The notes under the pieces were generated by a model. The model was not told the origin of the DNA, made no database searches, and saw only the letters and a program-made list of their open reading frames with translations. From Schistocephalus solidus (lineage: Eukaryota; Platyhelminthes; Cestoda; Diphyllobothriidea; Diphyllobothriidae): a stretch of DNA of 64,000 nt. Position 1 is the first letter of the stretch, and each line of letters starts with the position of its first letter. Below are positions 41,701 through 64,000 of this stretch, in pieces. A program made the translations under genes and the position numbers. The stretch lies in assembly GCA_017591395.1 (NCBI GenBank), contig WEDG01001008.1:1-64000 (forward strand). The letters are read 5' to 3'.

Positions 41701-44700
41701 AATCGTCTGCGACAGACAAGTTTTCGACTGTTCGCGGCCTTTGCTGATTTCCCGAAGACCTCACTCTTCTTGCTCTGCTATCAGGCCATCTCTACATTCC
41801 TCGCCAAATAGATGTGGTCCTCATATAGCCTGCTGGTTAAACTGCCGTGGTCATGACAGACAAGAACAGGAATCACAAGTAATACAGGGGAATCAGGGCT
41901 AGGGCTAAGGTAAATTTAGTCTGGGACGAAGCCTCAGGTTAAAGCTGGTGTTGCAGGTAACACACGGGAATATTTGCCCTTCCTGGGCTACCTGTCCTGC
42001 GGGGGCGCAGAGGTGTGCATAAACAAGTTGGAAATGAAAAATTGGATTTGTTGGTTACGTTGTTTTTATTTTGCAAAATGTAGAGTTCCTATTTTTTCAA
42101 CCCTCTGAAACCTTGAAACATTCCAGGTAACACCACTTGCCTTCTTTTATACCAACAGACAGCCGAAGCCGCCGTTGGGGCCGACTTACAGAAGGAATTT
42201 GCTCGCCAGCGGGAACATCTGGAACACTCCATGGCGGGACTGCGGAAAAAGTTAGCTAAGGACTCTGAGGTCCACAAATCTGACTACGTCCGCATCATGC
42301 ATGTAAGAATTTCAAAAAATAACGTTTTACAACTGGGGTTCCAGGGCCCTCTGGCTTTGGAGAATATTCCTGATAAACCGCTTTATGCAGATGAAGTCCA
42401 CTTAAAGAATAAGCTCCAACGAAGTAGGATAAACCTGCCGGGAAGCACGAGTGGGTTGGATGGATACAGGCAACCAATATCATAACGTGTATATTCGAAT
42501 GATATATAACGACGTTTTCTGCTTGCTCACATTTACGCACTTTCTTTTCAGTGTAAGTTAGAGGTACTACCTCAAGCAATTTCAACCGAAATTCAAAAGT
42601 ATGCCTTTGATTCAGAAAGATTACTTAATTAGTGGTATAATATTAATTATCTTACAGTATAATATCAAGCCTTTAAGTCATGCCGGGAAGCTGACTTGGA
42701 AACGTGCTCCTTTTCGGTCGCATTCAAAACTGCACTCTGTAAAAAAATAACTAATTAGGTCGGAAAAATTTTCCAATTGATTTTTGTGGCCCATATAAAT
42801 TTTAATAGATTTCGTAGAAAACATGAAAAAAAAACATTATTTCTTGCACTCATTTAGTAGGAAAGTTAGTGAAGAAGGTTGGTCCATTCCCCGGAATCAT
42901 GACTTAATTCGTCTGAGCTTTCGAACTCTTAATGGACTTCATCGTCAAAGATAAAACAGCAATATAAACGAGTAATATTTATGTGGGGGGGGGGGGCAGG
43001 GGCAGGGGCGAATCAGACCTCAGTGGCGCCAGTCCAGAGGTGACTACGTAGGACCCTGTATGCCCGATAAATCGATTTACCGAGTTCTCATTGGTGGCCC
43101 AGGCTTCAATCAATTCTCGCCTTGCCTTGCATCTGGCGTGGGTGATGATCTTCGTGACTGCGAAAGTTAAACTCGTGACCCGTTTCGTAGGTGTGGGCAG
43201 CCTCGTCTCACAGCAAGCTTATGCTCGTGTATGCGCGATCCAAGCGTACGTCCAGTCTGTCCTGTGTAGTTACAGGAACAGGTTTGACGCGGGATGCGAT
43301 ACACTACCCCCCGACTGCTCATTAGGATTTCATTTGTTCTTGATTCTCATGACCTTACTGCAAATGGTAGCTTTGGGTCGGTGTGCAATTCCGACACCAA
43401 GTCCCGCAAAAATGCGCTCGGTTGCTTCTGACACGCCCTTGATGTATGGGATCGCGTGCCATACCGTAGGGGGTTGGTTCTGGTTGGGTCCTCCGGAGGC
43501 GAACAAGTAGGCATCGGCTTATGAATGCCTTCGGATAGCCGTTTCGCATAAACTGGTCGCGAAACTAACGGCCCTCACGTACTTTTTCCACCGGGTTGCT
43601 TCAATGGGTCAAGATGCGTTTGAACAGTGTTCTCACACAGTTTCGTTTATGAGTCACCGGATGGTTGCTGTGAAAATTGAAAAGCTGCTCTGGCTCGCTT
43701 CTACGATCTGTCAAAGTTTCATACACCAAATGTTCCCTTGCGGCCAATAGTCGCCCTGAATGGCAGCCCCACCAATAATCTAGCAAAATGGATGTACTCG
43801 AAACTGAAATTCCTCCAACACAATCCGCCTGCCTCAGTCCGTTCAGCCTCCCAATTCCTGGCAGACCTCCAAGGTTGGAGGATTCAATTGGACGAATTGA
43901 TGGTCTCTTTTGTCGTGACGTCCTTATCCACATCCATCCCGCCGAGTTTAGCACAAGAAGTCTTGCGCAATAAACTTGAGGAGTCACACGACGAAACCCA
44001 GAGTTCTCTCAAAATTGAAAACCTTATGAAGCTATTCGAATTTTGTCAAAAGACCTACTTCACCTTTGCCGGAGAAACCTTTGAGCAGATCAAGGGAGTT
44101 CCAATGGGCTCGCCGATCTCCAGTTTAGTGGCAGAATTGGTCCTACAAGAGCTGGAGAAAATCGCTTTCACCCAACAGCAGCCTATCTTTTGGCGCCGTT
44201 ACGTAAACGACACATTTGTTATCGCGAAGAGGAACATGCAGCAGCATTTCCATGATCACCTTAACTCGATCTTCCCAGATATAGAATTCACGAGGAAGGA
44301 AGAATAAAAGCAGCAGTTCCCCTTCATTGATGTACTTCCCAGGCGACGTCACAAGGGCGAAATAGAAATGGCCGTCTACAGGAATGTGACGAACACCACA
44401 CAGCTTCTCAATTTTTACAGCAACCATCCGGTGGCTCACAAACGAAACTGTGTGAGAACATTGTTCAAACGCATCCAGATCCATTGCGGCAACCCGGCGG
44501 AAAAAGCATGCAAAGCCCGTTACCTCCGCCGATGCCTACGTGTTCGCCCCCGAGGACTCAACCAAAACCAACCCCTACGGTATGGCATGTGATGCAATGC
44601 ATCAAGGGCGTGTCAGAAGCGACCGAGCACATTGTTGCGGAACTTGGTGTCGAAATTGCACACTGACCCAAAGCTACCATGCGCAGTTAGGTCATGAGAA

Positions 44701-49490: not shown

Positions 49491-51378
49491 AGGGTGTCAA
49501 ATGAATGATTCAAGTCTGCCAAAATCCCAAAAAGCGTACGTGCCTTTGTTCGTATGAAGGAACTCCTCGTGTTTATAAAATGTTTTACAGGGTAGGAGTT
49601 GGGTTGCTTCATTTCAAATTCAGGTAAAAAAATTAAAAAATACATTTCCCATAAAACGAGTACGGGAAAAGATGTATTGATGCAGTGGGAGTTACGGAAA
49701 AGACTGAGACCATTCTCAGTCGAACGTATGAACATATACGGATGCATACAATAACCATTCTGGAACAGAGACCTTACTTACAGTGTGTGGTACAACGTAT
49801 GAATTGCTGTGCTTAGTAGGGAGTAATCGGTTCATGGTTATTTTTTTGGGTCGATTTGCAACGTAAATGTTTTTGAGGGAGAATTTAAAAAATCGCAGAA
49901 CAATTTTGGTTAGAAGCCAAAGTGTCTTTATATGAAATTAATTTTTACGCTGCCAAGTGTCACTGCCCAAGGCAATATGTTTTCGCGCGCTGAACTCTGA
50001 AAAAACCTTCATACGAAGGTAAAACGTTTACAGCAAGTGCCTTCGCTTCAAACTACCCGGGCTTTTAAATGCTTTCGAATGGAATCTACAGGTAAGCTGT
50101 GTTAATTTTACGTAACTAAGGAAGTTTACCTTCCTCAAATCCAACGTATCGCTTGCGCTAGGGATGATAACGTTCCGTGTCACGCAGGTCAAATGCGCTA
50201 GCTAATGGCTAATCAGGCAGCGTGACACAACCTTCTGCTTACATCCAGCATATGAACAAAGTGCTCATAAGGTTCTTTCTAAAGTGCATGCTTGGAGCCC
50301 AGCAGGACAAAAATATATCGAAAGCTTTTCATTCAAGTGTGAAGAGTACATTCAAAAGCAAGCATGCTTGCAAGCTGCATTTACTGGCATATGGACCAAA
50401 AACTAACGGACGAAAAATGTACTAGGTGCTCGGAAACTTATTTATGCTCGTCTCATCTTACGTTTCAGGTCTCTTTTTTAAAAACCAAAGAGGTCAACTG
50501 CGTAGGTAGCTTTCGTCTGTTGGCTAACTGCTGACTTCGTAGTTAACTTTGCGGTTCGGATTCCTTGTGTTGGATCCAGCTGCACGAAAGCATTTCACTG
50601 GAGTTACCACACTAATTTCAGCCTGCCGTCACAGGGCAGGAACTTAAGTCCGAGTAAATGGAAATAGCAGTGACCTATCGGATGGCATGTGCGTCACGTC
50701 TGTGTTCTCACATAACCTTGACTAGGGTACGTGGTGATTGGGGGGCTTTTTCAGTAAGCACTGACAGACTTTCCGTGTCATAGCGGGTCTCAGTCATGTA
50801 CTGTACTACATTAATAAAACTGCGGCGTTGACGATGGTCGCCCCTTTCTTGTCGATTGCGATTGTTCGACCAAGACGAAATCGGTCAGATTATCATCTCC
50901 CTGGCGTGCGTCTCTGGCTGGCGATGGCGTCAACCTTGGAAGCTTAAGGCATGGCGAAAAGTGCCCTTGAGCTCATCTCTGGCTCGGCAGTCTTTGGTCC
51001 GCTGGAATAGAATGCCGGCTGGCCAAAGTTGCTTTGAAGAATACAATTGATCGGCCATTTGTGTTGCAGCCAACTTACGCTGTGGATCCATCTGGATCAG
51101 TTATGCTGAATATCGTCCTAACTAGTACGAAGATCTGCTCTGCCTGAAACTTCTGCAACCTTCGAAAATATTTTAAAAATGCTAGCAGTGAAATTCTGCA
51201 TCCAAGTTTTTCCACCACATTGGTGATTTTCGCTGATTTACAAATCCAGGCTCGTATACCACCCTTGTCATATCATTTTGAATAAGAGTATATTCAAAAG
51301 TTTTTAATGAAAATACTGTCAGGAATATGCAATGAAGATGAAGGCACTTGGTATGATGAATAAACAAGCCTTAATTTC
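49491..51378. other. No gene recognised
   Basis: AT-rich DNA. Frames at 50222-50425 and 50856-51050 show no domain. Confidence 0.45.
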
Positions 51379-51393
51379 ATATATATATATATA
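51379..51393. repeat. (TA)n at the left edge of the SINE array
   Basis: Short TA run directly before the first unit. Confidence 0.9.
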
Positions 51394-51533
51394 CGATTGT
51401 GTGCGACTCACCAATCTGCTTAAGGAACATTTATGTTTCGTTGTGCCCTGGAACTCAGACTAGAGCCCTCACAGGCGGTCGCATAGCGACGTGTAGCATG
51501 TGTTGATAATGTGGAACCGACAAAGACAAGGGA

Positions 51534-51578
51534 GACCGGAATGGCCATTTCTGGCTTATTAGCCGTCATCAGCAAGTC
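51534..51578 (-). ncRNA. Hammerhead ribozyme, SINE family, copy 3
   Basis: Core and helix III intact. Helix I GACUUG/CCGGUC has one mismatch and one U-G pair, the weakest helix I of the array. Confidence 0.7.
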
Positions 51579-51842
51579 ATACCCAATCCCAGGTGTGGAT
51601 CACCCGGGATTCGAACCCGCGACCTTTGGTAATTGAGTGTAACACTCTACCATTGAGCCACGGGCCCGTTGTTTTGTCGGTTGCGATCGGGAATATGGAC
51701 TATGAAAGTGTGGTGTTCACCGATCTGGTTATGGAACACTGATGTTCCGCTGTGCCTTGGAGCTCACTTTAGAGCCCTCGCGGGCAGTCACATAGCGACT
51801 TGAGATATATGTTGATAAGATGGAACCGACAAAGACAAGGGA

Positions 51843-51887
51843 GACCGGAATGGCCATTTCTGGCTTATTAGCCGTCATCAGCCAGTC
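51843..51887 (-). ncRNA. Hammerhead ribozyme, SINE family, copy 4
   Basis: Helix I GACUGG/CCGGUC (6 pairs, one U-G), core CUGAUGA, helix II GGCU/AGCC closing AAUA with a C-A mismatch at its base, GAAA, helix III AUGG/CCAU without loop, predicted cleavage after AUU. Confidence 0.8.
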
Positions 51888-52152
51888 ATACCCAATCCCA
51901 TGTGTGGATCAACCCGGGATTCGAACGCGCGACCTTTGGTCATTGAGTGTAACACTCTACCATTGAGCCACGGGCCCGTTGTTTTGTCGGTTGCGATCGG
52001 GAATATGGACTATGAAAGTGTGGTGTTCACCGATCTGGTTATGGAACACTGATGTTCCGCTGTGCCTTGGAGCTCACTTTAGAGCCCTCGCGGGCAGTCA
52101 CATAGCGACTTGAGATATATGTTGATAAGATGGAACCGACAAAGACAAGGGA

Positions 52153-52197
52153 GACCGGAATGGCCATTTCTGGCTTATTAGCCGTCATCAGCCAGTC
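52153..52197 (-). ncRNA. Hammerhead ribozyme, SINE family, copy 5
   Basis: Same ribozyme sequence as copy 4, 310 bp further along. Confidence 0.8.
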
Positions 52198-52461
52198 ATA
52201 CCCAATCCCATGTGTGGATCAACCGGGATTCGAACGCGCGACCTTTGGTCATTGAGTGTAACACTCTACCATTGAGCCACGGGCCCGTTGTTTTGTCGGT
52301 TGCGATCGGGAATATGGACTATGAAAGTGTGGTGTTCACCGATCTGGTTATGGAACACTGATGTTTCGCTGTGCCTTGGAGCTCACTTTAGAGCCCTCGC
52401 GGGCAGTCACATAGCGACTTGAGATATATGTTGATAAGATGGAACCGACAAAGACAAGGGA

Positions 52462-52506
52462 GACCGGAATGGCCATTTCTGGCTTATTAGCCGTCATCAG
52501 CCAGTC
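52462..52506 (-). ncRNA. Hammerhead ribozyme, SINE family, copy 6
   Basis: Same ribozyme sequence as copy 4, 309 bp after copy 5. Confidence 0.8.
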
Positions 52507-52722
52507 ATACCCAATCCCATGTGTGGATCAACCGGGATTCGAACGCGCGACCTTTGGTCATTGAGTGTAACACTCTACCATTGAGCCACGGGCCCGTTGT
52601 TTTGTCGGTTGCGATCGGGAATATGGACTATGAAAGTGTGGTGTTCACCGATCTGGTTAAGGAACACTGATGTTCCGCTGTGCCTTGGAGCTCACTTTAG
52701 AGCCCTCGCGGGCAGTCGCATA

Positions 52723-52726
<4 letters not shown>

Positions 52727-52770
<44 letters not shown>
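52727..52770. repeat. (TA)n between SINE arrays
   Basis: About 22 TA units, cutting the array in mid-unit. Confidence 0.95.
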
Positions 52771-52774
<4 letters not shown>

Positions 52775-52996
52775 GTGTGTGGCTCACCGATCTGCTTAAG
52801 GAACATTTATGTTCCGTTGTGCCCTGGAACTCAGACTAGAGTACTCACAGGCAGTCGCATAGCGACGTGTAGCATATGTTGATAATTTGGAACCGACAAA
52901 GACAAGGGAGACCGGAATGGCCATTTCTGGCTTATTAGCCGTCATCAGCCAGTCATACCCAATCCCAAGTGTGGAACACCTGGGATTCGAACCCGC
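52771..52996 (-). mobile_element. Partial SINE unit, left arm of an inverted pair
   Basis: Minus-strand unit cut inside the tRNA-like head: only the B-box side (GGGTTCGAATCCCAGG) remains at 52980-52996. It is the reverse complement of 53005-53206. Confidence 0.9.
52910..52954 (-). ncRNA. Hammerhead ribozyme, SINE family, copy 7
   Basis: Same ribozyme sequence as copy 4. It lies head to head with copy 8. Confidence 0.78.
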
Positions 52997-53019
52997 TTGG
53001 AACACTTGGGATTGGGTAT

Positions 53020-53064
53020 GACTGGCTGATGACGGCTAATAAGCCAGAAATGGCCATTCCGGTC
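53020..53064 (+). ncRNA. Hammerhead ribozyme, SINE family, copy 8
   Basis: Helix I GACUGG at 53020-53025 with CCGGUC at 53059-53064, core CUGAUGA at 53026-53032. Predicted cleavage after 53058. Confidence 0.8.
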
Positions 53065-53237
53065 TCCCTTGTCTTTGTCGGTTCCAAATTATCAACATAT
53101 GCTACACGTCGCTATGCGACTGCCTGTGAGTACTCTAGTCTGAGTTCCAGGGCACAACGGAACATAAATGTTCCTTAAGCAGATCGGTGAGCCACACACT
53201 TTCATCATATTCCCGATCGCAACCGACAAAGCAACGA

Positions 53238-53309
53238 GCCCGTGGCTCAATGGTAGAGCGTTCGACTCAAATACCAAAGGTCGCGGGTTCGAATCCCAGG
53301 TGTTCCACA
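53238..53309 (+). promoter_or_regulatory. tRNA-like head with internal Pol III A and B boxes
   Basis: A 72 bp tRNA-related sequence with intact A box (53243-53253) and B box (53286-53296), the only intact promoter type seen in the repeat. It ends 15 bp before the hammerhead's helix I, so a Pol III transcript starting here would contain the ribozyme. I treat it as a SINE promoter, not a functional tRNA gene, because it recurs within every full unit. Confidence 0.8.
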
Positions 53310-53324
53310 CTTGGGATTGGGTAT

Positions 53325-53369
53325 GACTGGCTGATGACGGCTAATAAGCCAGAAATGGCCATTCCGGTC
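53325..53369 (+). ncRNA. Hammerhead ribozyme, SINE family, copy 9
   Basis: Best-placed copy: complete Pol III boxes directly upstream and another unit downstream. Predicted cleavage after 53363, 305 bases from the site in copy 8. Confidence 0.82.
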
Positions 53370-53542
53370 TCCCTTGTCTTTGTCGGTTCCAAATTATCAA
53401 CATATGCTACACGTCGCTATGCGACTGCCTGTGAGTACTCTAGTCTGAGTTCCAGGGCACAACGGAACATAAATGTTCCTTAAGCAGATCGGTGAGCCAC
53501 ACACTTTCATCATATTCCCGATCGCAACCGACAAAGCAACGA

Positions 53543-53614
53543 GCCCGTGGCTCAATGGTAGAGCGTTCGACTCAAATACCAAAGGTCGCGGGTTCGAATC
53601 CCAGGTGTTCCACA
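53543..53614 (+). promoter_or_regulatory. Second tRNA-like head with A and B boxes
   Basis: Identical in its boxes to the head at 53238-53309. Confidence 0.8.
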
Positions 53615-53629
53615 CTTGGGATTGGGTAT

Positions 53630-53674
53630 GACTGGCTGATGACGGCTAATAAGCCAGAAATGGCCATTCCGGTC
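53630..53674 (+). ncRNA. Hammerhead ribozyme, SINE family, copy 10
   Basis: Same ribozyme sequence as copy 9. Predicted cleavage after 53668; the unit downstream is cut off by (TA)n. Confidence 0.8.
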
Positions 53675-53700
53675 TCCCTTGTCTTTGTCGGTTCCAAATT

Positions 53701-53703
<3 letters not shown>

Positions 53704-53738
<35 letters not shown>
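53704..53738. repeat. (TA)n at the right edge of the SINE array
   Basis: About 17 TA units. Confidence 0.95.
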
Positions 53739-53742
<4 letters not shown>

Positions 53743-54250
53743 GAGACAACAGAGTTTGGGGGAAACTTAAAACATAAATGTTTCGGGCTTACTTGCCTCA
53801 TTCAGCCAAGCATATTCTTGACCACCAGCTGGGACCGGGAACACAAGCATGCACCCACACAGATGCTGCAGATGGTCCACTACTGGGTTTAGCAGATGAT
53901 TCATAAGCACTTCCTCGAACCAAATCATCTGTGCCTTGCCACCTAACATTCTCTGTCGCTGCAGATCGGGTTGTTATTCACTTAGAAATGGGCTAATACC
54001 GATCCAATTGTCTTTCCAAAGCAAACAATCTTTGTATGGGTGGCAAAGGTCATGAATAGGCAACCACTTACCTGGCTGAAGTCAGCCAAGCTGTAAGAGC
54101 AGAGAGGGGTGACGGAGTTTGGGGGTAACTTGATACAGAACTGTTTCGGGCTTATTTGCCTTCAATCAGCCAAGCATAACCCTGACCACTAGCTGGGACC
54201 GGAAACACAAACATGCACACACAAACGTGGTGCAGGTGGTTCACCACTAC
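53739..54250. repeat. Unclassified repeat R3, two direct copies
   Basis: 53739-53890 and 54098-54250 share GGAGTTTGGGGG-like starts (AGAGTTTGGGGGAAACTT and GGAGTTTGGGGGTAACTT), TGTTTCGGGCTTA, TCAGCCAAGCATA, CTGGGACCGG and ACACAA-CATGCAC words. They begin 359 bp apart. Confidence 0.75.
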
Positions 54251-54479
54251 GTAATTTTTGCAGTTATCAAAACTGAGTATTTTAACGGTCACTGTCAAGA
54301 GGACCTGCGCAAAGACGGCTTCACATACTAAACAGCCAACATAAAAGTCTTGCTTTACTCGATTGGCATCACGCAGGCTACCGTTGATTGAGACAAATTA
54401 ATCAAAAAGTTATTCTAGGCTAACAAAATGCGATGAATACATCTTTATTAATGAATAGGCTGTCTACTACTAGTTGCAA

Positions 54480-54700
54480 AGTTGGCTGTGCGATGGGATG
54501 ACGAATTATCGCAAGTTGCTGTCTACACTCACTAAACGGGCCAATAGCTAAACGTTGCAGCCTTCAAGATAATCACCCACCCCCGAAACAAGATGAGCTG
54601 AAAATTGATTGAAGCCTGGACCATGGATGGGCACTCTATCAATTGATTTATCGATTTGGCACCGGCGTACAAAGCCCTGCGTAGTCACTTCCAGACTTGC
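54480..54700 (+). mobile_element. Penelope-like element 3' end fragment
   Basis: Diverged copy of 44830-45010, the GIY-YIG end: GATGACG-ATTATCGCAAGT, GATAATCACCCAC, TTGATTGAAGCCTG, GGGCACTCTATCAATTGATT and TTGGCACCGGCGTAC. No reading frame survives. Confidence 0.65.
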
Positions 54701-56189
54701 GTTAGACATTATTTATTAGTTCATACCCACTATAACTGTCGCCTGTTTTTTTTTGCTGCTGTTATCTCTAACGATGGACTCCTACAGGAGTTTGAAAACA
54801 CCGAATAATAAAAATTTGGTCTGATGCTTTAGCAGACTTCTCTTTTGCTCACACAATCTCCTGAGATTCGAACCTTCGAATTCATTCGTGACTAATATTT
54901 GCATTAGATACAAATTCACGTCTCAACTGAACATTTTTGCCTTAAAAACTTTTTCTTTAAATTGTGTTTTCACTGGGCAAAAAAGATAGAACTGTCTCGT
55001 ACTGTCAAAAAAATTTAATTGCGCTTTTAGCCAAGCTGCGTTTTATTCTCTCTCTTGGAACGTTTTCACGCAGAGTAAAATGAGCCATTCCCTCATCGTC
55101 TTCTGCTTTTCATATAACTTACTTTACGGTGGTTTCAACCGGACAATTTACTTTGCATGCTTTGTTGAATTTCCCGTGAAGAGTCCTCCATCAACTCTAA
55201 TTTAGTATCCTTCAAGCTCATGAAGTGGACAACTTTTGAAAATTTGTATGCTCTCTAGGGGTGACGTGTTAAGTGAATCTCAAGTAATTTGGCTCTGCAG
55301 TTCATAATCCCCGTTCGCTCTCGATTTTCCTACGAATTCTGTAAGTGCATTGACGTACAGCGAGAACATATGGAAATAATTATTCCTAATCTGCTTTGAT
55401 GAGGTTTACTTAATAGTTCTTTAGTATCTGTAAGCCAGCCTTTGCCCTCTAGCTCCTAAAAACACGTTCCATGTGTCCATGTTTCGTTCGTTTTTAGGCT
55501 GGCGTCTAAAACCATGGATAATTCTCTCTAACAGTTATTTAATTGTTCCGTGCGGGAAAACTTACGGCTGCTCCAGGCAACCAGTCTCGTTTCTAGGCTA
55601 AGAACGAAACAACTATTCTGCTTGAGGTCATTAATTTCAATTAAGCCTTTTATACTGCTGCGTATACCCTACATGCTCCCAAGGATCCGGCTTAGAGACG
55701 CCTTTAAAGCGATCGTGCGCTCTTTTTGAGTCGTCCTCGCATATACAGGTGACAACGGAGAACTTGTGACCGAAGTGTGAAATAATCAGAATAAGTCCAT
55801 ACGTCCTCAGGGCAAAAATCTAACATCCTATTGCAGGCGGGCAAAAAAAACGAATTGGTTTATGACTCTATTAGGATTCTCACTGAGGGCTATATATCCA
55901 CACAAACTTATCCAGTTGCTTAACTTTATCGGATTTGATCACTGTGCCAGAGCATATATTTTCAAAAGTTCGTTTTATTTAGTGGCGAAAGTGTTGTTTT
56001 CCAAGCAGTTACATGGTAGAAAGTCTGGAAGCATCCTTCTGGGCAGCCTAGCCGCCCCTAGGCGTGGAACCACACCCCCTATGTTCGGCATTTGTTATGG
56101 GAGCGCAACCCGAATAACGCCTGCCGTGCCCTGATGTGGCCCCCGTGTTGGTCCAACGCATCTAGCACGTGGCCCGTCTCGAGGGTACA
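54701..56189. other. No gene recognised
   Basis: AT-rich spacer. A 90-codon frame at 55862-56134 has no known domain. Confidence 0.45.
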
Positions 56190-56689
56190 CACACGACAGT
56201 TCGACCGCCGTAGTCCGACGATTTCCACCGTTTGCTCCACAGAAGGATGGTGTAGGGACGGTGAATTGCACGCGGATTTGTTTTAAGTTATAGTAGCCTT
56301 GCGCTGCAGCTACCGCACTCTCTCCTCCTCCCCAACCTGAAACCAGTGTCATGACAGAGTCAAGAAGACCCGAGGTGGGAGAAGACGCAGGTGGCTGGCG
56401 TGGCCGGAGCCCCCTATGGACGAGCCACCAAATATGGCTCGGATCCCACGGAGTGGGAGTGCCATAAAGGCCACATTAAGAAGGAGCCGTTGCAGCCTGC
56501 CTCTCAGTCCACCAGTCTGCCACTCCACACAACACACATTGGACTGAATGCGAGGTTTTCATGCAATTATCAGTTGGTAACCTTCCAACCCACGGCGCTT
56601 ATCGCCCCATGATATTCTCAAGCTAAGATCACACATGCAACTGAGGAACAACATGGAGAAGGAGCCAAGGATCATGCTTGCCTCTGAAA

Positions 56690-57660
56690 CAGTTATGCAG
56701 ATTGAAAGCATGTTTTTGTGGTGTTGCGTGTGATCATGTCAGGTGCGGAGGCTGAGGAGGAGAGATTTAGTGTTGCAGTATAGCCGGCGGTGTCCAAGGG
56801 CAGGGTTTTATGGAGGCGCATGTGACCTAACAGGCCCATGCGGTGTGTGAATGTGCGTGGGCAGTGCGGATAGATGAGTCGGGTAAAGTGGGTGTATTTT
56901 GGTGGTCTTGACACTGGTTCACCAGTTTCTGTGTGATGAGTTCGTAAGTGACCGACCAGGCCGATGCGTGATGTGCACGTGTATTGACAATTAGAACAAG
57001 ATAGGTCGGGAGATGCTGAGTCTGCGGGGATCTTTCCTGTTACCGGTAGTCAAGCTCATGGGAGGAATATGGGATGTGTTGATGGGTGTGTAAGATGTGC
57101 TGGCGTCGCGGTGGATTCCGCTTTCATGTATGCGCATATGACCGAGCAAACCCATGCGGTGAGTGAATGCGTGGGGACGATGAGGGCAAAGGAGGCGACG
57201 GTCTCTGCTCTATGTTGATGCTCCAGGCCCATGCGATGACTGAATGCGCAGGGGCAGTAGAAGCGTCGGTCTCTGCTGTGTGTTGATACTCCAGGCATCA
57301 GTTCGCTAGCCTCTGCGTGATGGATTCGCAAGTAACCGACTAGGCTGATGTGTGAAATGAAGGTGCGATCGCAATGTGGACAGGTTAGTACCAAGTTCTC
57401 ATCGCTGGTACTGGAGGCGGTGATTGTGGTGGTGGCGGGGGAAGTAGGAGGTGGCAGGTAGTCGGAGGTGGTGGCTACTGAGGTGGTGGTGTTCGTTGCC
57501 ATGATCGGCGCAGGGGGTGGAGCAGGGAGGATGCTGTCCGTGATCGTGGGTGGCGGGGCATCGGTGAAGTTGTTATCAGTGGTTTGGGTGGTCGGGGTCA
57601 TGGGGTCTGAGGCAGGTGTGGCAGAGGTTAATTTTATGTGATTGTTGTTGCATTGAGTTC
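56690..57660 (-). pseudogene. Cluster of C2H2-like finger modules, LINE C-terminus
   Basis: Repeated modules of the form CPxCxRTFxHRMGLLGHMRxH: LTCPHCDRTFISHISLVGYL near 57390, FSHRMGL near 57240, further copies near 57150 and 56960, and HCPRTFTHRMGLLGHMRLH near 56850. Low-complexity Thr/Pro linkers (TTTTSVATTSDYLPPPT) lie between modules. Some first-His positions are Tyr and the frame changes between modules. A nucleic-acid-binding tail for the retrotransposon protein is the likely role. Confidence 0.65.
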
Positions 57661-57682
57661 GACGATGTCCAACCAGGCCGAT

Positions 57683-58984
57683 TCACGCGCGGAATGTGTG
57701 TTGAGAGCGTGGGCACGTTGGCAGGGCTTGGACATTGGCGGTGTTGATCCGCGGTGCTTGTAACTTACGAGCTGCCCTTTTGGCCATAGCAGAGGTGATC
57801 CGGTTGGCCTCATAGATTGCTGAACCAGTCTTCACGGATCTTCTCCATGTCGGTATATCCTGGGTGAGGTCATCCCAGATCGCCGGGTTGATTTGCAATT
57901 GCTTCAGAGATTTCTTCAAAGTGTCCTTGAAGTGTCGTTTTTGAACTCCCTGTCGGCGAGCACCCGTAGCGACAGCTCCGTAGAAAAGTCGTTTGGGTAG
58001 TCGCTCGTCATCCATTCTTACCAGGTGGCCGCTCCATCGCAGTTTCACTTGCCTCAGCATACCGAGGATGCTGAGGATTCCAGTCCGCTCCAGGACTTCC
58101 GTGTCCGGGATCTTGTCTTGCCATCTTAGCTTCAGTATTCAGCGGACGCAGCTGAGATGGAAATGATTCAGCTTCCTGGCTTACTTCGAGTAGACCGTTC
58201 AGGTCTCCGCTTTGTAAAGGAGTGTCGTCAAGACGATGGACTTGTGCATCTTCAGTTTGGTGTTCAGGTGAATACCATGGCGATTCCACATGGAGGTCTG
58301 CAGCCGGTCGAAGGCCTGACTAGCTTTGGAGATCCGTTGAGCAACCTCGTCATTGATTCTCGTTTTGCGTGTCAGTGCGCTTCCCAGATAAGTAATTTTT
58401 TTCGCATTTTTGAGATGAGCGCCGTAGACATTGATTCGCGGAGCATTGTATTCTGCGCTGGGTGGCGGCTGTTGCATGCCAACCGTTTTGGCTGTACTGA
58501 TTGTTAATACAAAATTGCCGCAGCCTGCGGCGAAGAGGTCCATGCTATTTTGCATGTCCTCCTCCATCACGGTGTTAAGAGCGCTGTCATCCGCGAAGAG
58601 CAAGTCATAAACTGTAGTCGTAGACACGCGCGTTGGAGCCTGCATACGCCGACTGTTGAGAAGGTGCCCGTCAGTTCTGTAGGCGATGCGGATACCAGGC
58701 TGCTCATCACGGTAGGCGTCCACCAGCATAGCCGAGAACATGAGACTGAACAGGGTGGGAGCAAATACGCAGCCCTGCTTCACTCCGTTGGTCACTGCGA
58801 ATGCTTCGGATACTGTCCCGTTGTCAGTGACGCGCGCCGTCATCTCGCCATGAAGCTGACGCACCATGTGCGTGAACCGCTCAGGACAACCAAATTTCTG
58901 CATGACTTTCCACAGTCCGTCACGATTCACCGTGTCAAAGGCTTTCGTTAGATCCACGAAGGTAGTGTATAGGTGAGTTCGCAT
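57683..58984 (-). pseudogene. LINE reverse transcriptase and C-terminal domain
   Basis: The 261-residue frame 58199-58984 begins MRTHLYTTFVDLTKAFDTVN and contains the palm block TNGVKQGCVFAPTLFSLMFS and the catalytic box DLLFADDSALN with both aspartates, then ITYLGSALTRKTRINDEVAQ and KLKMHKSIVLTTLLY. A stop and frame change near 58195 separate it from the C-terminal part 57683-58060, LRWSGHLVRMDDERLPKRLF and PTWRRSVKTGSAIYEANRI, which ends in a first finger-like CPRSQHTF. Confidence 0.9.
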
Positions 58985-59223
58985 CTCCTGGCATTTTGGA
59001 TTTCTCTCTCAGGTCTTCCAGTTTGTGGGTTATTTGGTTGCTGAAATCAAAACAGTGAGCAGGCAAATTTAACAAAAGTGTATTTTACTTACCTGGCGGT
59101 CACTTCCCTTGGCGCCTTCGTAGGGGGTTCACATCTAAGCCTCATCTGGGAGATGTCGAAGCGGTGATCTGTCCAACCATCAACATCGTGGAACACCTTG
59201 ATTACTAGCAAATCCTATCGATC

Positions 59224-59819
59224 TCACTTCCGGACAAGAACATAGTCCAGCAGCTGCCAGCGCCGCGACCAAGGGTGCATCCATATGGCCTTCTCCCGCA
59301 TCGGAAGGCAGAAGAAGGCGTTGGTCAGCAGGAGACGGTGTTCCGCACACGTTCGCAGAAGAAGGAGTTCGTTATCGGTACAGCTACCGAGACTGTGGGG
59401 ACCCAGCACTCCCTGTCAGGCAACGTGGTCCGTCCCGACGCGGGCGTTGATGTCACCAAGGACAATTAACTTGTCCGCCTTCGGCACAGTCGCCATCAGG
59501 GTGTGCAGGACCTAGTAGAATTTGTCCTTCGCCGCATCAGAGCTCGTCATAAGGGGAGTGTAGGCGTTGATGATTGCGACGAAATTCTCTCCCCGAAGAT
59601 GCAGGCGGAGGCGCATCAGACGATCATTGCTACCCTGCAAAGATAGGGCAGACGTCCCACGATGTCGTTCTGGATGGCAAAGGCAACACCAGCGTCGCGT
59701 CGCTCTGCCTTTAGCTGGCCGCTCCAGAAGAAGGTGTAGCCGACACCCACCTCCTCCAGCTGACCCTGCTTAGAGAATCGGGTCTCGCTGAGAGCAGCAA
59801 TATCCACCTTGTAGCTCAC
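59224..59819 (-). pseudogene. LINE APE-type endonuclease
   Basis: Nicks target DNA for priming. [19 protein letters not shown] has the SETR block with the catalytic-region Glu, then [20 protein letters not shown]. The middle part is out of frame, and the end contains [32 protein letters not shown] with the terminal D-Y block. Confidence 0.85.
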
Positions 59820-60757
59820 AAGTTCCCGTGCGACTAGCGCCGTCTTCCGTTCCGTCTGGTTTCTCCTAGGATTGTCTAAAAGGGACGAACATTCCCGGCT
59901 GCTAGTGTAAGCGGACTCACCCGTGCAGCCCGGAGGGTATGGCGCGGGGATGGGGACGGGGTATTGTTGTTTGTCAGAGTTTTACGATCGTGTATTTTGC
60001 GATCTGCGAGCCGCAACCCGTTGCAGCTGACATGATACCCAGCGTGTGTTTAGGGCACCTTTTCTAGCCCCTTCCTCCGTGAGGATGCAAGCAGTGCTGT
60101 CCCTAAATAGGGCTGCTAGAACATCCCAGGCTGCTGCCGAACTCCACTATGTGTCACGGTTTTGGTTAAGGGAGAAAGTGACCCGGGTTAGTCTGGGCCA
60201 CCTACGGGGTTGTTGTCGCACCCACCGTAGAACTTTTTGAGAGGGGGGAGGTGGGAAGTTCAGGAGTCAGACATACCGGTTGTGGATGCACACACAGAGC
60301 ACTGGAGACCCGCACCTGATTCAGCCCGCCGGTCGTGATGGTTGCCCGGAGTGTGGCCGTGTGTCTGGTAAGTGCAGGCAGACTGCCTAGCACTGACAGC
60401 CACCTGCGACGAAGCCGCGCATTAGATGAGTGACCGGCTCGGCCTGTAGACTGGCACCTGGGGGAGGGAAGTGCGAGTGATGTCGACTCTGTGGACTGTA
60501 ACGGTGGATGGGCACTCAACAATTGCGTTATAGAACATAATTGTTCCGATGGTACCCTGAGGCTCACTCTAGAGTCACGACAGCAGCCACAAAGCGGTTA
60601 GAACTGCAGGTTAAATGAAATTATCGCTTCAGACAAGGAAGATTGGAAGGTCCGTTCTGACCTATTAGCCGGCCTACCTAGCATTAGGAGTGTACCCCTA
60701 AAGCCGTTAGGCAGCTAAGTATATAGGCAGAATAACATGACCGACAAAGACAAGGGA

Positions 60758-60802
60758 GACTGGAATGGCCATTTCTGGCTTATTAGCCGTCATCAGCCAG
60801 CC
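60758..60802 (-). ncRNA. Hammerhead ribozyme, SINE family, copy 11
   Basis: Helix I GGCUGG/CCAGUC: the A-U pair of other copies is G-U here, so pairing is kept at a changed position. Core, helix II, helix III and AUU site as in copy 4. Confidence 0.78.
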
Positions 60803-61066
60803 AAACCCAACCCCAAGCGCTGTGGACCCCAAGCCTCGAACTCGTGACCTTGTTGGACAGACGTCTAACGCTCTACCCCATGTGCCACGACCTCGTTGAC
60901 TTGCCGGTTCCGATCGGAAATATTAACAATGGTAGTGGGGCGCTCACCGATCGGTTACAGGACTCACTCGTCCCGTTGTGTCTTATGGCTAACTCTCAAG
61001 TCCCACCAGCAAACGTAAGGAAGCTAAGTATATAGGCAGAATAACATGACCGACAAAGACAAGGGA

Positions 61067-61111
61067 GACTGGAATGGCCATTTCTGGCTTATTAGCCGTC
61101 ATCAGCCAGCC
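61067..61111 (-). ncRNA. Hammerhead ribozyme, SINE family, copy 12
   Basis: Same helix I variant as copy 11. Predicted cleavage sites of copies 11 and 12 are 309 bases apart. Confidence 0.78.
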
Positions 61112-61374
61112 ATACCCAACCCCAGGAGCTGCGGCGCCCGAGCCTCGAACTCGCGACTTTGTTGGGCAGAAGTCCAACGCTCTACCCACTGCGCCACGAG
61201 CTCGTTTTCTTGCCGGTTTCGATCGGGAATATTAACAATGGTAGTGGGGCGCTCACCGATCGGTTACATATATATACTTAGCTGTCTTACGGCTGCTGGC
61301 GGGGCTTGAGAGTTAGCCCCAAGGCACAACGGGACGACTGAGTCCTGTACCCGATCGTTGAGCGCCCCAATACC

Positions 61375-61377
<3 letters not shown>

Positions 61378-61420
<43 letters not shown>
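61378..61420. repeat. (TA)n between the two ribozyme-repeat families
   Basis: About 21 TA units separating the SINE array from the inverted 355 bp unit. Confidence 0.95.
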
Positions 61421-61424
<4 letters not shown>

Positions 61425-61795
61425 AAGACATTATACCGTACTTCCGACATAGGTACTAGCTAAAAGCCCAGACACATGTTTTGCCGATGTTTCTGCTGCT
61501 GCGTGACACAGCAACGAGGGGTTCGGCTCCTCAGTGGGTCCCCAGCGTTCTCTATGCGGTTTCTGGTATATGGACTCAGAGAATAATCGGGGAAATAATT
61601 TCTGAAATTATTAAGTGCAGGACATGGAGTCAGGTGATTCGGACATGACTTTTAGGGTCAGACCCGAAATTTCAATGAACATTTGGGTCGAAGACAATCA
61701 ACCACTGTGGAATAACCACGTAATGCCCATTCTACAAACAAGTAGTACTACAAGTAGTATGAATCTTATATGGCAAAGACATTATACCGTACTTC

Positions 61796-61799
<4 letters not shown>
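61421..61799 (-). repeat. Inverted unit of the 355 bp ribozyme repeat
   Basis: Reverse complement of the + strand monomers that follow, slightly more than one unit long (the GGCAAAGACATTATACCGT block occurs at both ends, 61421 and 61771). It faces the array across a (TA)n tract, making a head-to-head pair. Confidence 0.93.
61467..61538 (-). ncRNA. Hammerhead ribozyme, 355 bp family, inverted copy with broken core
   Basis: Helices I and II intact, but the GAAA core reads AAAA: invariant G12 is A. Helix III changes to ACAU/GUGU-like with one G-U pair. Predicted inactive. Confidence 0.75.

Positions 61800-61832
<33 letters not shown>
61800..61832. repeat. (TA)n at the centre of the inverted pair
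   Basis: About 16 TA units. Confidence 0.95.
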
Positions 61833-61835
<3 letters not shown>

Positions 61836-61966
61836 CGGATCTGACCCTAAAAAGTCATGTCCGAATCACCTGACTCCATTTCCTGCACTTAATAATTTCA
61901 GAAATTATTTACCCGATTATTCTCTGGAGTCCATATACCAGAAACCGCATAGAGAACGCTGGGGGA

Positions 61967-62038
61967 CCCACTGAGGAGCCGAACCCCTCGTTGCTGTGTC
62001 ACACAGCAGCAGAAACATCGGCGAAACACGTGTCTGGG
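61967..62038 (+). ncRNA. Hammerhead ribozyme, 355 bp family, copy 1
   Basis: Type I hammerhead in order: helix I CCCA (61967-61970), core CUGAGGA (61971-61977), helix II GCCGA, a 9 by 9 internal loop, a distal hairpin UGCUGUG/CACAGCA with loop UCA, helix II UCGGC, core GAAA, helix III ACAC/GUGU with no loop, C17 at 62034, helix I UGGG (62035-62038). All invariant core bases and the G10.1-C11.1 and A15.1-U16.1 pairs are present. Predicted cleavage after 62034 (GUC). Confidence 0.9.
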
Positions 62039-62320
62039 CTTTTAGCTAGTATCTATGTCGGAAGTACGGTATAACGTCTTTGTCATATACGATTCATACT
62101 ACTTGTAGTAGTACTTGTTTGTAGAATGGGCATTACGTGGTTATTCCACAGTGGTTGATTGTCTTTGACCCAAATGTTCATTGAAATTTCGGATGTGACC
62201 CTTAAAAGTCATGTCCGAATCACCTGACTCCATGTCCTGCACTTAATAATTTCAGAAATTATTTACCCGATTATTCTCTGGAGTCCATATACCAGAAACC
62301 GCATAGAGAACGCTGGGGGA

Positions 62321-62392
62321 CCCACTGAGGAGCCGAACCCCTCGTTGCTGTGTCCCACAGCAATAGAAACATCGGCGAAACACGTGTCTGGG
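62321..62392 (+). ncRNA. Hammerhead ribozyme, 355 bp family, copy 2
   Basis: Core and helices as in copy 1. Differences are confined to loops: distal hairpin loop UCC for UCA, and AUAGAAACA for GCAGAAACA. Cleavage predicted after 62388. Confidence 0.88.
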
Positions 62393-62674
62393 CTTTTAGC
62401 TAGTATCAATGTCGGAAGTACGGTATAACGTCTTTGCCATATAAGATTCATACTACTTGTAGTAGTACTTGTTTGTAGAATGGGCATTACGTGGTTATTC
62501 CACAGTGGTTGATTGTCTTCGACCCAAATGTTCATTGAAATTTCGGGATCTGACCCTAAAAAGTCATGTCCGAATCACCTGACTCCATGTCCTGCACTTA
62601 ATAATTTCAGAAATTATTTACCCGATTATTCTCTGGAGTCCATATACCAGAAACCGCATAGAGAACGCTGGGGA

Positions 62675-62746
62675 CCCACTGAGGAGCCGAACCCCTCGTT
62701 GCTGTGTCACACAGCAGCAGAAACATCGGCGAAACACGTGTCTGGG
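62675..62746 (+). ncRNA. Hammerhead ribozyme, 355 bp family, copy 3
   Basis: Ribozyme identical to copy 1; one G fewer in the run just upstream. Cleavage predicted after 62742. Confidence 0.9.
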
Positions 62747-63030
62747 CTTTTAGCTAGTATCTATGTCGGAAGTACGGTATAACGTCTTTGCCATATAAGA
62801 TTCATACTACTTGTAGTACTACTTGTTTGTAGAATGGGCATTACGTGGTTATTCCACAGTGGTTGATTGTCTTCGACCCAAATGTTCATTGAAATTTCGG
62901 ATCTGACCCTAAAAAAAGTCATGTCCGAATCACCTGACTCCATGTCCTGCACTTAATAATTTCAGAAATTATTTACCCGATTATTCTCTGGAGTCCATAT
63001 ACCAGAAACCGCATAGAGAACGCTGGGGGA

Positions 63031-63102
63031 CCCACTGAGGAGCCGAACCCCTCGTTGCTGTGTCACACAGCAGCAGAAACATCGGCGAAACACGTGTCTG
63101 GG
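63031..63102 (+). ncRNA. Hammerhead ribozyme, 355 bp family, copy 4
   Basis: Ribozyme identical to copy 1. Cleavage predicted after 63098. Confidence 0.9.
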
Positions 63103-63386
63103 CTTTTAGCTAGTATCTATGTCGGAAGTACGGTATAACGTCTTTGTCATATACGATTCATACTACTTGTAGTACTACTTGTTTGTAGAATGGGCATTAC
63201 GTGGTTATTCCACAGTGGTTGATTGTCTTCGACCCAAATGTTCATTGAAATTTCGGATCTGACCCTAAAAAAAGTCATGTCCGAATCACCTGACTCCATG
63301 TCCTGCACTTAGTAATTTCAGAAATTATTTACCCAAATATTCTTTGGAGTCCATATACCAGAAACCGCATTGAGAACGCTGGGGGA

Positions 63387-63458
63387 CCCACTGAGGAGCC
63401 GAACCCCTCGTTGCTGTGTCACACAGCAGCAGAAACATCGGCGAAACACGTGTCTGGG
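63387..63458 (+). ncRNA. Hammerhead ribozyme, 355 bp family, copy 5
   Basis: Ribozyme identical to copy 1, although the monomer around it has several substitutions. Cleavage predicted after 63454. Confidence 0.9.
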
Positions 63459-63502
63459 CTTTTAGCTAGTATCTATGTCGGAAGTACGGTATAACGTCTT
63501 TG

Positions 63503-63504
<2 letters not shown>

Positions 63505-63568
<64 letters not shown>
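63505..63568. repeat. (TA)n at the right edge of the 355 bp array
   Basis: About 31 TA units. Confidence 0.95.
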
Positions 63569-63571
<3 letters not shown>

Positions 63572-63607
63572 TCGAATGTTCGAGAATATGCGAGGCCCAG
63601 GTAATTG

Positions 63608-63713
63608 TATTGAAGAAGACGGGAAGGCGTTCTCTGGGACCAGAATTTTATTCATCCGACGTCGGATGAATAAAATTCTGGTCCCAGAGAACGCCTTCCC
63701 GTCTTCTTCAATA
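63608..63713. repeat. Perfect 106 bp palindrome
   Basis: Two 53-base arms with no spacer, centred between 63660 and 63661 at CATCCGAC/GTCGGATG. Arms contain GACGGGAAGGCGTTCTCTGG and its reverse complement. A (TA)n run (63712-63724) borders the right side. Confidence 0.95.
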
Positions 63714-63724
63714 TATATATATAT

Positions 63725-64000
63725 TAATATATGTCGTAGAGCCTGCCAGTTTATCAATGAGGCCTCTATTTACTCCATAAAGAGCAAATCAGTAGGTAGC
63801 AGTTTGCGAAAACCTTTTGTGGATATATCGAGTCTGGCCTTTTTTCTTTCATATACCTGTAAATTCTGAATCCTATCGAAGAACATTCTCATACATCTTC
63901 GTTCATGGGCTACCAGACGGTTTTGAGCTGTTTCATGCATTTTCGTTAACCATTGTCACAATTTCACGTCACCTGACAACCATATAAATTAAGGGTGGTT
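63725..64000. other. No gene recognised
   Basis: Short open frame at 63725-63869 only; the window ends here. Confidence 0.4.

Follow-up and report, generated by a model that had tools for sequence, protein, structure and literature searches.

A 354-bp hammerhead repeat of the tapeworm Schistocephalus solidus has the sequence features of an animal retrozyme and bears a footprint of reverse transcription at (AT)n

We analysed 64,000 nucleotides of Schistocephalus solidus DNA (assembly GCA_017591395.1, contig WEDG01001008.1, positions 1 to 64,000, forward strand; hereafter the window). Judged by its sequence features, a 354-bp repeat of this diphyllobothriidean tapeworm is a retrozyme of the animal kind. 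Its arrays have favoured 3′ ends at (AT)n and scattered 5′ ends, and thus they show a footprint of reverse transcription. A sequence-only reading of the window had called the repeats retrozyme-like units, and the features of animal retrozymes that we tested, taken from the available part of PMC7229834, bear this out. We consider it likely that Penelope-like machinery uses the two ends of an (AT)n break to start reverse transcription of one RNA circle; the cleavage, the circle, the enzyme and the simultaneity are what we infer. The insertion anatomy of the arrays is new, whereas the class of element is already published. That reading also knew of no description of the repeat. We found no tapeworm hammerhead paper in the open-licence literature, among the matches listed, but the class itself is described and platyhelminths are named in the accessible text of PMC7229834. 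For the head-to-head and (AT)n anatomy of retrozymes, we found no description in the open-licence literature among the matches listed, as far as the available parts of those sources go.

The features of the 354-bp family in the window are as follows.

61378-61419, no strand: (TA)n run that abuts the 3′ end of the antisense copy
61416-61801, reverse strand: antisense retrozyme copy (1.09 monomers) whose 3′ end lies at unit position 55; (AT)17 separates it from the array, to which it is head-to-head
61800-61833, no strand: (AT)17 between the 5′ ends of the sense array and the antisense copy
61834-63509, forward strand: sense retrozyme array of 4.7 monomers of 354-356 bp; 5′ end joins (AT)n, 3′ end at unit position 55
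61967-62038, forward strand: hammerhead 1, with CCCA/UGGG stem I, CUGAGGA, GCCGA/UCGGC stem II with an inner hairpin, GAAA and ACAC/GUGU stem III; predicted cut after 62034
62321-62392, forward strand: hammerhead 2, with three changes in the stem II loops; predicted cut after 62388
62675-62746, forward strand: hammerhead 3; predicted cut after 62742
63031-63102, forward strand: hammerhead 4; predicted cut after 63098
63387-63458, forward strand: hammerhead 5; predicted cut after 63454
63505-63566, no strand: (AT)n run that abuts the 3′ end of the sense array

Tandem Repeats Finder recovered the 354-356 bp repeat claimed earlier, with a period of 354, 4.7 copies and 97% matches over 61832-63509. 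The earlier account did not mention the antisense copy, a second family of hammerheads or the (AT)n runs that adjoin the ends of the arrays. The array is non-coding, its longest stop-to-stop frame being 103 aa; a protein search with a 103-aa antisense frame of the unit returned one Schistocephalus solidus protein, over 21% of the query at 100% identity. The unit has a GC content of 43%, and its circle is predicted to fold at -87 to -98 kcal/mol, highly self-paired. Variants in the array show a four-gamete pattern. In the antisense copy, G12 of the hammerhead core is changed to A (complement of 61482). The sense array and the antisense copy both end at position 55 and are split by (AT)17, thus this pair looks like two insertions. 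Two exact patterns gave 0 matches in viral contigs.

A complete type I hammerhead had been claimed for all five monomers, and our descriptor matched five out of five with every core base present. C3 falls at 61971, 62325, 62679, 63035 and 63391, and stems I, II and III have 4, 5 and 4 bp; all five hammerheads show CUGANGA and GAAA cores, GUC at the predicted cut, and three helices with stem I open. Over 40 dinucleotide shuffles of the window, the descriptor averaged 0.15 matches per window when set loosely and had none with stems of 4/5/4 bp. The 15 hammerhead matches found by scanning the window all lie in the two repeat families (five in the 354-bp family and ten in the 305-bp family). A looser scan, in which longer loops were allowed, also struck three unrelated places (13043, 7077 and 6549), and therefore the descriptor discriminates with tight loops only.

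The covariance-model check proposed in the sequence-only reading gave a divided answer: Rfam model RF00163 (Hammerhead_1) aligns all five copies at 22.8-22.9 bits, but none reaches the gathering score of 34. The E value was 0.006 in a 728-bp search holding two copies and 0.11-0.12 in 14 kb; these values are counted over 4227 families and would be about 4000 times smaller for one family alone. The low score is probably caused by stem II, which spans 45 nt. The repeat adds a hammerhead form that the standard Rfam threshold misses.

Stem III (ACAC/GUGU) has zero bases left for a loop. Two pairs may close an ACGU loop, or the pairing may be between two molecules. In the predicted fold, stem I runs far past the core and a hairpin lies inside stem II. 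Minimum-energy folds of about 120 nt recovered stems I and II of the five sense copies and not stem III, whose bases were paired with part of the core; the fold of the antisense copy differs from these five. GGGG in stem I (unit positions 283-287) and CCCC in the stem II loop (306-309) might form a pseudoknot, which would replace the usual loop-loop contact.

Four of the five hammerheads had been described as identical over 72 nt despite differing surroundings. This identity is not evidence of selection. Among the four full monomers, 3 of 19 variable columns lie inside the 72-nt hammerhead, which is about its share of the length, and across 182 copies the mean minor fraction was 0.022 in the hammerhead, 0.017 in its core and 0.027 elsewhere. 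Stronger purifying selection on the hammerhead than on the rest of the unit is unsupported by either measure.

The species' own assembly comprises 603.7 Mb in 8019 contigs. A 23-base pattern from the 5′ part of the hammerhead, with up to two mismatches, has 7110 matches genome-wide, and its reversed control has 0. A DNA search of this assembly with the 86-nt hammerhead, by a method that skips very common words, returned 0 matches. We read 42 regions, drawn from 41 clusters among the matches listed, and covered the rest of the genome by pattern counts. The whole hammerhead is present in 145 of the 182 copies used, and 114 of these 145 match the reference at each of the eleven core letters scored. 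Helix pairs are kept in 89-99% of cells, each pair being scored in 80-149 of the 182 copies; conservation is lowest in outer stem I, one pair of which is disrupted in roughly half of the copies. Compensation was seen at one pair of the stem II hairpin (T-A, with T-G in 36 and C-G in 17 copies). The 354-bp family thus has tandem units within 150-450 bp, a dispersed distribution, a high copy number and a hammerhead in each unit, the traits by which metazoan retrozymes are recognised.

The ends of the arrays are informative about how they arose. Unit positions are numbered from the hammerhead cut, and we compared 81 arms from 43 loci (the 42 regions and the window), 76 of them clear of region edges. 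Arms and their pairing in these loci, divergence and concordance all rest on blastn, by which arms below 30 nt or with E above 1e-3 go unseen and small gaps are possibly misplaced. The sense 3′ ends of the 76 arms lie at position 55 in 29 cases, at 239 in 24 and elsewhere in 23. An (AT)n run of at least four repeats occurs within 22 nt outside the 3′ end in 49 of the 53 arms that end at 55 or 239. Over all 76 arms, such runs lie outside the 3′ end in 57 and outside the 5′ end in 16, compared with 3.3% of 20,000 random non-arm positions. Fifteen of the 23 arms that end elsewhere are without (AT)n. The 5′ ends are scattered, with 23 of 76 falling in 147-190. Any target-site duplication would be hidden by the (AT)n flanks.

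Genome-wide, we counted 1025 (AT)n junctions at site 55 and 742 at site 239, with up to one mismatch; the controls gave 1 and 0. Position 259, which has an identical CATATA, gave a single junction, and we therefore rejected the idea that microhomology alone sets the 3′ ends. The circle is predicted to fold with positions 47-54 in the loop of a hairpin and with most of 232-243 unpaired, whereas the TATA at 256-259 lies within a helix that prolongs the extended stem I. The repeat could be ordinary satellite DNA spread by unequal exchange, with the hammerhead as a passenger, and tandem arrays of up to about 13 units and the mixing of variants within some arrays would agree with this. The arrays are, however, dispersed, head-to-head in order and flanked by (AT)n, and their two favoured 3′ ends are hard to reconcile with such an origin, which we regard as very improbable.

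Arms that abut one another (gap of 12 or less) are head-to-head in 24 of 24 cases, with no tail-to-tail and no same-strand pairs. Wider neighbours, within 150 nt, include two tail-to-tail cases (L042 and L057) and the head-to-head pair of the window, all three with (AT)n between the arms. Another locus (L059) has two same-strand cases across a stretch that is or contains (AT)n, and one more (L065) has a same-strand case without (AT)n. Inverted overlaps of at least 4 bp occur at 8 of the 24 head-to-head junctions, compared with 1.7% in simulation; blastn may overextend these overlaps by one or two bases.

The two arms of a head-to-head pair tend to end at different start points. This comparison covered 100 exact site-55 junctions and 80 exact site-239 junctions, those listed as far as contig C650. 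Head-to-head neighbours within 3 kb combined 55 with 239 in 20 of 20 cases (P 7e-7 against independent choice, for which the expected chance of a mixed pair is 0.494); the intervening sequence was read for those of the 20 that lie among the fetched loci. The same lists hold ten other neighbours within 3 kb that are not head-to-head (three ++, five -- and two +-). In the loci that were read, 11 of the 12 classed head-to-head pairs are mixed and one is 55/55 (L051, with one end at a contig end), a count that omits the 12 of 24 pairs having an arm that ends elsewhere. The two samples overlap by five loci. Two 239/239 pairs (C679 and C682) lie beyond the contigs compared.

Head-to-head arms could also be made during one-sided insertion, by self-priming or by template switching onto antisense RNA. 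Self-priming was proposed by the authors of the rotifer Penelope work (PMC3846280, available part), and the excess of inverted overlaps at the junctions would fit. The classed pairs, however, have both outer ends at start points, most with (AT)n outside, and the two arms differ in length and in their 5′ coordinate, so that neither is a fold-back copy of the other. We rejected fold-back self-copying because the arms differ in length and end point, and we hold one-sided insertion by either route to be quite improbable.

If both arms were copied from one template, they should share variants, and they do. Concordance was scored over 13 columns in which loci differ from one another. It was 0.88 for the two arms of head-to-head pairs (19 loci), compared with 0.93 within arms (37 arms) and 0.68 between different loci. 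With permuted partners the concordance was 0.685, and 0 of 500 permutations reached 0.88. Concordance was weak at L060 (0.50), L059 (0.71) and L066 (0.75), and the L062 array of about 13 units has mixed variants and a concordance of 0.78. Raw divergence was 0.0247 within arms, 0.0448 between the arms of a locus and 0.0479 between loci, and the distances between arms had a mean percentile of 0.38, where 0.5 would mean no closer than other loci. The divergence and concordance tests excluded arms below 85% identity and copies of fewer than 60 columns. Given the mixing at L062 and the four-gamete pattern in the window, a single circle does not account for all arrays, and for these two template switching or later exchange must be invoked.

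As 27 of the 29 site-55 arms continue past the cut site, the template was presumably not the cut linear monomer. A monomeric circle would have one site 55 and one site 239, and therefore two primers on it would have to take one each. A multimeric template would not impose this rule. On this reading, the one-of-each rule would be the genomic signature of a monomeric circle as template.

The template may instead have been an uncut multimeric transcript, with the same element and enzyme, so that arrays copy existing arrays. The heterogeneity of the L062 array and of the array in the window would be expected from such copying. A purified lizard Penelope-like element inserts equally well with a dead hammerhead and inserts unprocessed RNA in vitro (PMC11167929); therefore the ribozyme may not be needed for insertion. 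A multimer is also compatible with the pairs of the second family (three mixed and three same-site). However, it holds many copies of both start points, and same-site pairs should then be about as frequent as mixed ones, whereas 20 of 20 and 11 of 12 pairs are mixed. We therefore judge copying from a multimer to be unlikely.

We have proposed a model in which a circle is the template. Tandem units would be transcribed, and the type I hammerhead of each unit would cut the RNA to monomers of about 355 nt, which would then be closed into circles. A Penelope-like reverse transcriptase/endonuclease would cut an (AT)n microsatellite on both strands, and both DNA 3′ ends would prime synthesis on one RNA circle, one each at unit positions 55 and 239. 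Synthesis would stop short of a full turn of the circle in some cases and continue for up to about 13 turns in others. Joining of the two first strands, often via short inverted homologies, would leave head-to-head arrays flanked by (AT)n. Several elements of the model are seen directly in the sequences: the core and helices of the hammerhead, 3′ ends gathered at two points, (AT)n on the flanks, arms in head-to-head order, a preference for one of each start point, and variants common to both arms. For the full form of the model, in which a single circle of about 355 nt is primed at both start points by one cut (AT)n site and a dimeric Penelope-type enzyme carries out symmetric two-ended rolling-circle target-primed reverse transcription, we put the chances at even.

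Candidates for the machinery are present in the genome, and the window holds a fragment of one family.

43681-44304, forward strand: Penelope-like reverse transcriptase fragment, from a candidate autonomous partner family

A protein search with this frame gave 91 matches, of which 89 are named and come from Spirometra, Sparganum, Dibothriocephalus and Schistocephalus. Rfam found no hammerhead near the fragment. Elsewhere in the genome, tandem Penelope-like elements (L079 and L080) have open frames of 949-955 aa and units that are 99.1-99.9% alike, and thus they have probably been active recently. RVT_1 scored above the cut-off in one of the two frames, and the GIY-YIG match was weak (E 0.052). 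A minimal hammerhead-like motif lies at the start of the Penelope-like frame in both (L079 5400-5900 and L080 4550-5049), with U4 changed to C in each; by eye, the ATG is at stem II and the putative cut is 28 nt after it. Rfam gave no hammerhead match on L079.

The footprint of retrozyme insertion, and the footprint only, fits Penelope-like machinery: the target is AT-rich, both strands are extended and the start points are internal and defined. The lizard element favours AT-rich DNA, both strands of which it cuts and extends, and it has two internal start sites; from the published numbers, its hammerhead cut would be 85-92 nt ahead of the main start (PMC11167929). According to the available part of PMC3846280, head-to-head is the commonest arrangement of rotifer Penelope elements, one inverted end may bear a tail, a microhomology junction was found in one case, and one family shows mostly direct copies alone. 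The retrozyme might have been mobilised by another reverse transcriptase, such as that of a LINE; other RVT_1 frames lie within the window, and sea-anemone retrozymes show 15-bp duplications like those of LINEs (PMC4918200, in the part available). As insertion on two strands at AT-rich sites from an internal start is Penelope-like biochemistry (PMC11167929), we consider mobilisation by another reverse transcriptase improbable.

The window contains a second, tRNA-headed family.

51399-52725, reverse strand: array A, 309-bp units with a tRNA-like head and a hammerhead candidate
52765-52996, reverse strand: copy B, head-to-head with C and with its 3′ end at (AT)22
53002-53704, forward strand: array C, 305-bp units that are 100% identical, with A and B boxes at unit positions 242 and 285; 3′ end at (AT)17
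53020-53064, forward strand: hammerhead candidate with a C.A mismatch at 10.1-11.1

Copies B and C form a head-to-head palindrome with (AT)n on both flanks. In the unit tested, the A and B boxes are exact and the tRNA-model scores reach 28.8 against 29 bits; the hammerhead candidate follows the tRNA-like head, and its C.A pair lies at the base of stem II. An old fragment of the family at 31166 has U-A at 10.1-11.1 and a mismatch in stem I. Within 50000-64000, an Rfam search with matches reported up to E 10 did not detect a hammerhead in the 305-bp family, and blastn found no match between the 354-bp family and the 305-bp units at 1e-4.

Abutting pairs of the second family, read by eye, are head-to-head in 11 cases, tail-to-tail in 0 and same-strand in 1. 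Their 3′ ends fall mostly in two classes, 23-42 and 141-152, and a census at one site, the 152 junction, gave 630 matches genome-wide with a control of 0. The one-of-each rule is absent from this family, in which three pairs are mixed, three are same-site and five are unclassed. Three further same-site pairs (C163, C406 and C1271) were seen by eye in a single-site list, which could show no mixed ones.

We compared both families with known systems. Like the metazoan non-LTR retrozymes in the available text of PMC7229834, the 354-bp family has a type I hammerhead in each monomer, tandem units in the range of 170-400 nt, a GC content below 50%, no coding capacity, a highly self-paired monomer and Penelope-like elements in the same genome. 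It differs from them by its 45-nt stem II region with an inner hairpin. Its arrays, moreover, are head-to-head at (AT)n and have two start points, an anatomy that this text does not describe for metazoan retrozymes. With the schistosome SM-alpha/W36 repeats it shares a flatworm host, a similar length (about 335 bp there) and a type I hammerhead (PMC8490949, available part). However, no sense-strand B box was found within two mismatches, and the pol III promoter by which SM-alpha repeats are recognised is thus lacking on that strand; the antisense strand has an exact A box and a one-mismatch B box, 100 nt apart. The second family shares its layout and a tRNA-derived head with schistosome repeats, which carry a full tRNA (PMC4918200, in its accessible part).

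Short helices III with palindromic loops that act as dimers have been described in salamanders (PMC7229834) and elsewhere (PMC3088659), in the available parts of both sources. As in the axolotl and newt satellite hammerheads, helix III of the 354-bp hammerhead is short and its palindromic loop favours dimers, but its palindrome has eight bases (ACACGUGU) and its stem II is long. One axolotl family has a mismatch at the base of stem II, as in our second family (PMC7229834, same portion). Tandem and head-to-head copies and AT-rich targets are common to the 354-bp family and Penelope-like elements (PMC11167929; PMC3846280, available part), as are two internal start points and a hammerhead near a start point (PMC11167929). 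Penelope-like elements, in contrast, encode their enzyme, and their start points are 30-40 nt apart whereas those of the retrozyme are 184 nt apart (PMC11167929).

The available part of PMC7229834 leaves open the route by which retrozymes re-enter the genome, the use of RNA circles as template and mobilisation by Penelope-like elements. The S. solidus genome offers a countable footprint, with about 1770 array ends at two exact start points, so that these questions become testable. It also adds tapeworms to the retrozyme hosts that we found in print, with two families that share no blastn match.

Two further observations concern the window. Just past the (AT)n run, 63617-63702 form a long inverted repeat, with a microRNA-like match below threshold. 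At 23046-23936, and probably including frames from 14617 on, lies a host gene that resembles cilia- and flagella-associated protein 57. The protein search covered the exon at 23046-23933, the remainder being judged by eye, and the sole tapeworm among its named matches is Hymenolepis, over 13% of the query.
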